From: Burkholderia cepacia ATCC 25416
GTDB taxonomy: Bacteria; Pseudomonadota; Gammaproteobacteria; Burkholderiales; Burkholderiaceae
Assembly (NCBI RefSeq): GCF_001411495.1
Contig: NZ_CP012982.1
Location: 620,001-684,000 of the forward strand
Direction of reading: 5' to 3'
DNA: 64,000 nucleotides
A program made the position numbers and the translations under genes. Within the stretch, counting starts at the first letter, position 1. The number at the start of each line of letters is the position of its first letter. The notes under the pieces were generated by a model. It was not told the origin of the DNA. It made no database searches and saw only the letters and a program-made list of their open reading frames with translations. Of the stretch, positions 53,918 to 58,575 are shown piece after piece.

Positions 53918-54811
53918 ATGAATAATCTCAGACGACTCGACCTGAACCTGCTCGTCACGCTGGACGTGCTGCTCGCCGAGCACAACGTCACGCGCGCGGC
54001 CGAGAAACTGAACATGTCGCAGCCGTCGGTGAGCGTGCAGTTGCAAAAACTGCGCGACCTGTTCGGCGATCCGCTGCTGTTGCCGGGGCCGCGCGGGATG
54101 CGGCCGACCGCGCGCGCGGAAACGCTGCGCGAGCCGTTGCGCGATGCGCTCGAAGCCGTCGAGCGCGCGGTGGTTCCGGCCACACCGTTCGATCCGGCGA
54201 CCGCGACGAACACGTGGCGCGTGGCCGCGACCGACTACGGCGAATCGACGATCGTGCTGCCCGCGCTGCACACGCTGCGCTCGGCCGCGCCCGGTACGCG
54301 GCTCGCCGTCGTCGAACTCGCGCCGCCGCGCATCGAGCAGGACGCCGAACGAAACGGCATCGACCTCGCCTTTCATACGACGGAAGGGTCGCCGGCCGGC
54401 ATGCGGCGCCTGCCGCTGTTCGTCGAGCGTTATGTGCTCATCGGCCGCGCCGGGCATCCGAAGCTGAAGCGGCGCCCCACGCTCGCGCAGTTCGGCACGC
54501 TCGAACACGTGATCGTGTCGCCCGATGGCGGCGGCTTCTTCGGCGTGACGGACGAAGCGCTCGCGAAGGTCGGTGCCGTGCGGCGCGTCGTGCTGTCCGT
54601 GCCGCACTTCCTGTTCGTGATGTCGGCGGTCGCGAGCACCGATCTCGTCGCGATGCTGCCCGAGCGACTGGTGCGCGACGTGCCTGCGTTGCGTGTGGTG
54701 GACGCACCGGTCGAGGTGCCCGGCTATGAAATGTCGATGCTGTGGCACGAGCGCGTGCATCGCGACCCGGCGCACCGGTGGCTGCGGGAGACCATCGCGG
54801 CGGCGGTCTGA
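53918..54811 (+). CDS. LysR-family regulator (PcpR/NodD-like), divergent from the quinone reductase
   Basis: 297 residues. MNNLRRLDLNLLVTLDVLLAEHNVTRAAEKLNMSQPSVSVQLQKLRDLFGDPLLLPGPRGMRPT is a complete LysR DNA-binding region; the C-terminal half is the effector-binding domain (TDYGESTIVLPALHTLRSAAP). The 86-bp gap to the divergent reductase gene makes it the obvious regulator of that gene. Ligand unknown, possibly a quinone. Confidence 0.91.
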   Translation: MNNLRRLDLNLLVTLDVLLAEHNVTRAAEKLNMSQPSVSVQLQKLRDLFGDPLLLPGPRGMRPTARAETLREPLRDALEAVERAVVPATPFDPATATNTWRVAATDYGESTIVLPALHTLRSAAPGTRLAVVELAPPRIEQDAERNGIDLAFHTTEGSPAGMRRLPLFVERYVLIGRAGHPKLKRRPTLAQFGTLEHVIVSPDGGGFFGVTDEALAKVGAVRRVVLSVPHFLFVMSAVASTDLVAMLPERLVRDVPALRVVDAPVEVPGYEMSMLWHERVHRDPAHRWLRETIAAAV

Positions 54812-54856
54812 CACGGCCCGGTTGCCGGACGGCTGCCATCTGCTGTCATCGGGGGC

Positions 54857-54892
54857 TTGAAAGTGCGCCGATCACTGTATATATTTACAGTG
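54857..54892 (+). promoter_or_regulatory. LexA (SOS) operator overlapping a sigma-70 promoter
   Basis: TTGAAA (54857-54862) and TATATT (54880-54885) are 17 bp apart. The -10 lies inside CACTGTATATATTTACAGTG (54873-54892), a near-perfect match to the LexA consensus CTG(TA)5CAG, which holds in beta-proteobacteria. LexA binding would block this promoter, so the downstream gene at 54949 should be SOS-induced. Confidence 0.82.
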
Positions 54893-54948
54893 TTTCTGCG
54901 TCATTTGACCCGAATTCCGTCCCCGAGGCGGTCTTTAGTGAGGCGACC

Positions 54949-55359
54949 ATGTTTCAGTCATCCGCATTCGATCCCGAGCAACCCGGCTTCAATCCCGTCC
55001 ACTTCGAGCGCGCCGCGCGGCAGGCGGTCGTCGATCTTCAGCGTGTCGTCGGCGGCCCCGCGCAGCGGGCGCTCGGCTTGCGGCGCCGCAGCCACCCGGC
55101 CGCCGTCCGCACGATGAGCTGGCAGGCGCTGCTGAATGTCGAGGAGCTGGCGTTCTCGAACTCCGGCTTCCTGAACCGCAACGATCCGACGGTCGTCGAC
55201 GCCTTCATCCGGCTGCGCGACAGCCGGATGGTCGCCGCGGACGTCGAGGAAGCCGTCGACTGGAAGCGCGACGACGACGATTTGCCCGCCGTTTATCTGA
55301 TCGTCAAGGCGATGCTGGAAGCGGAAGAGCGCGAGACGCAACACGCCGAGATGGAGTGA
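54949..55359 (+). CDS. Uncharacterised protein under an SOS-type promoter
   Basis: 136 residues from ATG 54949, with AGTGAGG (54937-54943) before it. No domain recognised. MFQSSAFDPEQPGFNPVHFERAARQAVVDLQRVVGG, then MSWQALLNVEELAFSNSGFLNRNDPTVVDAFIRLRDSRMVAADVEEAVDWKRDDDDLPAVYLIVKAMLEAEERE: largely helical, acidic C-terminal half, no signal or membrane segment. It is alone, not next to imuA, imuB or dnaE2 genes. The LexA box upstream implies DNA-damage induction; its activity is unknown and could be repair, cell-division control or toxin-like. Confidence 0.82.
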   Translation: MFQSSAFDPEQPGFNPVHFERAARQAVVDLQRVVGGPAQRALGLRRRSHPAAVRTMSWQALLNVEELAFSNSGFLNRNDPTVVDAFIRLRDSRMVAADVEEAVDWKRDDDDLPAVYLIVKAMLEAEERETQHAEME

Positions 55360-55383
55360 CGGCGGCGACGCGCGGCCGTCCCG

Positions 55384-58575
<3,192 letters not shown>

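Follow-up and report, generated by a model that had tools for sequence, protein, structure and literature searches.

The DNA analysed here, a stretch of 64,000 nucleotides of Burkholderia cepacia (the window), contains a gene for a small protein that is very probably under LexA regulation, to judge from its sequence and those of its relatives. An exact LexA box overlies the promoter of this gene and is kept in front of its orthologs, and the protein itself is related to the DUF2471 family, most examined members of which turn out to stand behind a box of the same kind. We favor, as the probable reading, a stand-alone SOS gene, repressed by LexA and induced by DNA damage, whose small, acidic, helical product would act as a partner of DNA-binding or repair proteins. 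Comparison gives the regulatory half of this assignment strong support; the biochemical role we infer from the neighborhoods of related genes.

Promoter, operator and gene

The 20-bp palindrome CACTGTATATATTTACAGTG spans the -10 element of a promoter of the form TTGAAA-N17-TATATT (Table 1). This overlap had been claimed in a sequence-only reading of the window, and both motif and promoter scans bear it out. The promoter match, at 54857-54885, is the single promoter-like site in 54780-55420, where 0.1 are expected, and the CTGT-N8-ACAG core of the palindrome, CTGTATATATTTACAG at 54875-54890, is the sole such motif in the 64 kb. The palindrome ends 56 bp, and its core 58 bp, 5' of the ATG at 54949. 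The bare CTGT-N8-ACAG motif is expected 0.24 times per window, occurs at least once in 22 of 100 shuffled windows, and has 46 sites in the whole genome, as compared to 33 for a reversed control motif. Given such a frequency in the shuffles, the match alone is weak, and it is conservation that constitutes the real evidence (see below).

The leader between the box and the ATG (54893-54948) includes a conserved stretch, ATTTGACCCGAATTCCGTC, and two competing short stems can be drawn in it, with little support from RNAalifold. Instead of the hairpin listed in Table 1, this program favored another weak stem of four pairs, with an unconvincing consensus energy of -1.74, and Rfam has no match within 54700-55500. 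Positions 54939-54948 show 99% identity to the window across 34 aligned rows.

The 136-residue gene directly 3' of the promoter is confirmed in full. The adjacent genes, named by inspection, code for a LysR-type regulator and a FadH-like reductase (the longest ORF of the latter reaches 57792), so that the earlier remark about the lack of SOS genes nearby is true of the adjacent genes.

Table 1. Features of the window around the DUF2471-family gene
Feature	Position	Strand	Evidence
LysR-type regulator gene, upstream neighbor, outside the unit (name by inspection)	53918..54811	+	ORF list
-35 hexamer TTGAAA	54857..54862	+	Promoter scan; 5/6 columns invariant in 34 rows
Predicted LexA operator, 20-bp palindrome CACTGTATATATTTACAGTG	54873..54892	+	Core 15/16 columns invariant, 34 rows
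-10 hexamer TATATT, within the operator	54880..54885	+	Promoter scan
Possible small leader hairpin CCGTC-CCCGA-GGCGG, weak	54917..54931	+	Terminator-like scan, 0.5 expected
Ribosome-binding-like GTGAGG (by inspection)	54938..54943	+	Conserved in alignment
DUF2471-family gene, 136 aa, pI 5.0	54949 (ATG)..55359 (stop)	+	ORF, PF10616 match, homolog annotation, alignment
FadH-like reductase gene, convergent downstream neighbor (name and start MTTPFPHLL by inspection)	55384..57417	-	ORF list

Conservation of the operator in Burkholderia

We retrieved 34 related loci, 33 from Burkholderia and one from Paraburkholderia xenovorans, and the box counts in this paragraph refer to these fetched loci. A motif search upstream of the Burkholderia homologs, suggested as a check by the sequence-only reading, finds the exact box at the same place in 33/33 ortholog loci. 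The 16-mer is identical to the letter in 32 of them; the locus of B. guangdongensis (L051), the ortholog in which has 71% protein identity, has one substitution in the N8 part. In each of the 33 loci this box is the sole exact one (33 in 337,590 bp). When the window and 33 loci are aligned, nearly all columns of the core and of the -35 hexamer are invariant (Table 1), while mean identity to the window is 57% in the 10 bp between the -35 hexamer and the box, and 51% in the upstream flank. The LysR-type neighbor is present in 31/33 loci, and one of the other two is truncated at its contig start; the FadH-like neighbor is present in 32/33. Neither neighbor was found in the B. guangdongensis locus, and the box is still there, indicating that the box travels with the gene. 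In P. xenovorans (L052, 42% identity), there is no box within 160 bp of the gene, and two tandem boxes precede the upstream gene of the same operon.

A protein search in 65 genomes of the genus detects matches of at least 70% identity over approximately 130 residues in 54 genomes; among the remaining 11, counted by hand, four have only distant relatives and seven have none. In a larger, overlapping set of loci, the exact box is found at all 37 distinct loci of the same type as the window gene (type B, see below). With the box upstream in 33/33 and 37/37 loci, membership of the gene in the SOS regulon is well supported by comparison.

The LexA motif elsewhere in the genome

The same motif is located in the same genome upstream of recA (one site), lexA (two sites), the DNA polymerase IV gene dinB, imuA, and uvrA, of which the start alone lies within the stretch examined. 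It also precedes genes for an SRAP protein and a PA0069-type radical SAM protein, as well as a FAN1-like gene with FAN1_HTH and SAP domains (L126:2-1261, minus strand). A score matrix was trained on eight such sites, with the site in the window excluded, and applied to 40 of the 46 genomic sites, six repeats of listed sites being left out. The window box, at 25.5 bits, is twelfth of the 40; the training sites include those of recA (26.0 bits), imuA (25.6), dinB (22.2) and the first site of lexA (21.6). Three sites that outscore the window box (L014, L007 and L116) are without a confidently assigned gene, and therefore the matrix score alone is no proof.

The DUF2471 family

The sequence-only reading had seen no recognizable domain in the protein, and in this it was wrong: homology search gives a match to DUF2471 (PF10616) over residues 25-131, with a score of 22.2 bits and E-value of 0.00017. 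The score is below the curated Pfam cut-off of 25 bits, so sequence comparison places the protein on a divergent branch related to DUF2471, short of model-certified membership. PF10616 is listed in the precomputed annotation of 18/19 homologs, several close homologs are called "DUF2471 family protein" at NCBI, and a profile built from eight sequences, including the window protein, matched 500 proteins, all 120 among the matches listed carrying PF10616. The predicted structure of the window protein is all helical (pLDDT 86.5, pTM 0.81); a structure search with this fold yielded no informative match, and NCBIfam has no match for the protein. A lone match among solved structures in a sequence search (7drg, E = 0.034) and two matches in PHROGs (E = 0.13 and 0.18) were ignored. 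Likewise, some relatives bear the name "serine/threonine protein kinase", and no kinase family was matched by the DUF2471 proteins scanned. Residues L30, W58, R88 and P113 are invariant across 84 aligned DUF2471 sequences, and the three members tested are all acidic, with pI of 5.0, 5.5 and 4.5.

DUF2471 is present in 65/65 genomes of the genus, and, within the family Burkholderiaceae, in 164/299 genomes and 10/25 genera. A sample of the whole order, consisting mostly of other families, has it in 5/399 genomes, with one match (G007) outside the family of the window; elsewhere in the order, one genome from a different family has a boxed DUF2471 gene (L056). In the genome of the window, a stronger paralog of type A (175 bits) lies on a chromosome, and one of type C on a plasmid; the latter turned up twice, as the two ends of contig C4 duplicate each other. 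With 209,807 bp and these duplicated ends (L017 = L018), the contig would fit a circular plasmid of some 204 kb, and an identical type C protein is encoded by a B. cepacia ATCC 25416 plasmid of 204,170 bp.

Each gene was assigned to a type by its best BLAST hit; type A accordingly includes the remote members L112, L165-L172 and L178-L180. Loci whose gene regions were identical over their last 350 bases were merged, and the loci used for the box count comprise type A from 52/65 genomes of the same genus and a selection from other genera. In 123 of the 136 distinct DUF2471 loci, an exact LexA box lies upstream, at most 450 bp from where the domain begins: 74/77 of type A, all of type B, 8/8 of type D, where the box sits before the gene for a small basic protein that we call X (see below), 2/10 of type C, and 2/4 of the remaining ones (type E). 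The exact box was not found in type A loci L086, L178 and L180, nor in two type E loci. Eight of the ten type C genes were found to have no exact box of their own; L091 and L106 have a one-mismatch box, and for L089 the search covered only about 150 bp upstream. Outside the window type, then, the exact box precedes 86/99 DUF2471 loci. The idea of a self-standing, uncharacterized SOS member is thereby upheld as far as the SOS regulon is concerned, and abandoned as far as it made the gene an isolated case.

Recombinase-like neighbors of DUF2471

A gene similar to tyrosine recombinases is found downstream of DUF2471 in 63/77 type A loci (for two of the other 14 loci, only 456 bp downstream were covered) and in 9/10 type C loci. 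Three examples match PF00589 above its cut-off, and the XerD and XerC profiles below theirs. We aligned 73 of 74 such ORFs with the XerC and XerD of the genome, leaving out L149 (<200 aa); the 73 are not deduplicated, and include 63 sequences of type A and 10 of type C, with L110 repeating L091. In all 73, three catalytic columns are replaced: the first arginine, R-I (K in 63, T in 10), the histidine of H-x-x-R, H-II (Q in 63, R in 10), and the next histidine, H-III (F or L). The nucleophile column has H in 57, Y in 6 and R in 10 sequences, i.e., the tyrosine is replaced in 67/73, and the second arginine (R-II) is the sole one of the five catalytic columns examined that is kept throughout. None of the 73 aligned neighbors has the full residue set of an active tyrosine recombinase (R-I, H-II, R-II, H/W-III, Tyr), and the proteins are most likely, judging by these columns, DNA-binding without recombinase activity. 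Two recombinase-like genes that adjoin DUF2471, L016:318-1340 (minus strand) and L017:2040-2966 (plus strand), are conserved, with most catalytic residues replaced.

Protein X, the plasmid cassette and other company

X is a small basic protein (91 aa, pI 11.4), which has no match in the Pfam scan and owes its PF25860 label to precomputed annotation. It occurs in 133/299 genomes of the family. In the genome of the window, X stands alone behind a LexA box (C2:190398-190697, or L119:1299-1598; C2:190,425); a second box, with one mismatch, lies 18 bp upstream, and in other genera, too, X is preceded by tandem boxes. At eight loci, namely in P. xenovorans and seven genomes of one other genus, one or two boxes are followed by X and, immediately downstream of it, DUF2471. 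Among 21 distinct X loci, counted by hand, the exact box lies within 160 bp in 17; two others show a one-mismatch box, and the last two have no box of either kind. X is likely to be a second uncharacterized SOS gene, as suggested by these boxes. One locus (L149) links X, DUF2471 and the recombinase-like genes: box, X and DUF2471 come in this order, and a type C recombinase-like gene begins about 840 bp further on.

In two annotated plasmids, the type C gene follows an imuA-imuB-dnaE2 cassette and an H-NS gene, and in two others it follows the H-NS gene, the cassette being absent; in the plasmid of the window's own genome, a LexA box stands before imuA of the cassette. Two further arrangements are single cases: box, DUF2471 and a gene for an AlkB-like 2OG-Fe(II) oxygenase in L165 (797-1405, minus strand), and box, DUF2471 and an exonuclease/GIY-YIG gene in L179 (2008-3300, plus strand), where the GIY-YIG match is just under its cut-off.

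Proposed role and competing explanations

Established LexA biology and the anatomy of the promoter suggest that, in the undamaged cell, LexA on the 20-bp operator would cover the -10 element and block RNA polymerase, and that, upon DNA damage, RecA-stimulated cleavage of LexA would free the promoter. The window copy, without an operon partner, would act in trans. From the neighbors of its relatives, DUF2471 may, as a tentative proposal, serve as an adaptor or partner to proteins of the same response that bind or repair DNA; the candidates are the catalytically degenerate recombinase-like proteins, the basic X, and, in one instance each, the AlkB-like oxygenase and the exonuclease/GIY-YIG protein. 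A bolder and rather doubtful possibility is that Burkholderiaceae possess an SOS-induced, DNA-binding complex, so far undescribed, of DUF2471, X and the recombinase-fold proteins devoid of their catalytic site; the window gene would encode a free-standing subunit of it. Such a complex would act on damaged or recombining DNA not by cutting, and might, for instance, occupy Xer-like sites or damaged forks.

Small, lineage-restricted genes that have LexA boxes and lack homology often code for division inhibitors, such as SulA, SidA and YneA, which favors the idea of an SOS-induced checkpoint or toxin-like protein that halts division or growth and does not aid repair; an acidic DUF2471 and a very basic X could also resemble a neutralizing pair. 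We consider this unlikely, as the informative neighbors are SOS and repair genes, not division genes, and no membrane segment is apparent by eye in the protein; PADLOC, too, recognized neither the window protein nor X, which says little. It is a little harder still to see in the protein a directionality or accessory factor of a tyrosine recombinase from a mobile element, with the window copy as a leftover. Such an origin would fit the frequency of recombinase-like neighbors at type A and type C loci and the occurrence of type C in plasmid records, but replacement of the catalytic columns makes excision or integration by these neighbors unlikely, the type C protein (the one query used) is unmatched in 50,697 phage records, and presence in every genome of the genus is unlike a passing mobile element.

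Two other explanations concern the palindrome itself. It could be the site of another repressor, of phage type or a LexA paralog, which would place the gene outside the host SOS regulon; this is very improbable, since the matrix score of the site is near that of the recA and imuA sites in the same genome, and since it lies, in 31/33 loci, between ordinary chromosomal LysR and FadH-like genes. A chance palindrome in an AT-rich promoter might be suspected from the shuffled windows, but is hardly credible when the box is kept in every Burkholderia locus beside a drifting spacer, including the one in which neither neighbor was found, and when 46 sites in 8.6 Mb amount to about 0.0009 per given 160-bp stretch.

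Comparison with known systems

SOS regulons are already well known; what we add to them, in the predicted LexA-regulated gene of the window, is a member with an unusual family context. A comparative study of the SOS response from 2012 (PMC3323433) predicts LexA regulation for two hypothetical genes, hypA and hypB, of beta-proteobacteria with multiple chromosomes; hypB is called exclusive to Burkholderia and hypA more widely spread in the group, and the main text names each of them once, without function, family or neighbors. By described distribution only, hypB may suit DUF2471, and hypA may suit X. For B. cenocepacia, induction of recA and lexA is described (PMC10944698), in passages where the window gene is absent. 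No mention of DUF2471, PF10616 or PF25860 was found in the literature searched. For DUF2471, a family of unknown function, the regulatory assignment now has a sound basis, and there is a defined list of candidate partners. If the complex exists, a recombinase fold with a degenerate catalytic site would be the basis of a damage-induced module in Burkholderiaceae; this would be unusual for the SOS response, and would bear on the survival of DNA damage by large multi-replicon genomes.

Compared with the type A members of its own family, the window type has 25-28% identity to three copies and scores under the curated PF10616 cut-off, and, unlike types A and C, it has a recombinase-like neighbor in 0/37 loci. 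With recA, lexA, uvrA, dinB and imuA of the LexA regulon the window gene shares the operator motif, at a comparable score; unlike them, it codes for a protein in which scans of Pfam, NCBIfam and PHROGs found no known repair-enzyme domain. The type A and type C neighbors, in turn, have PF00589 in common with the tyrosine recombinases of the Xer type, and differ from them in the replacement of R-I, H-II and H-III in every aligned sequence, and of the tyrosine in most.
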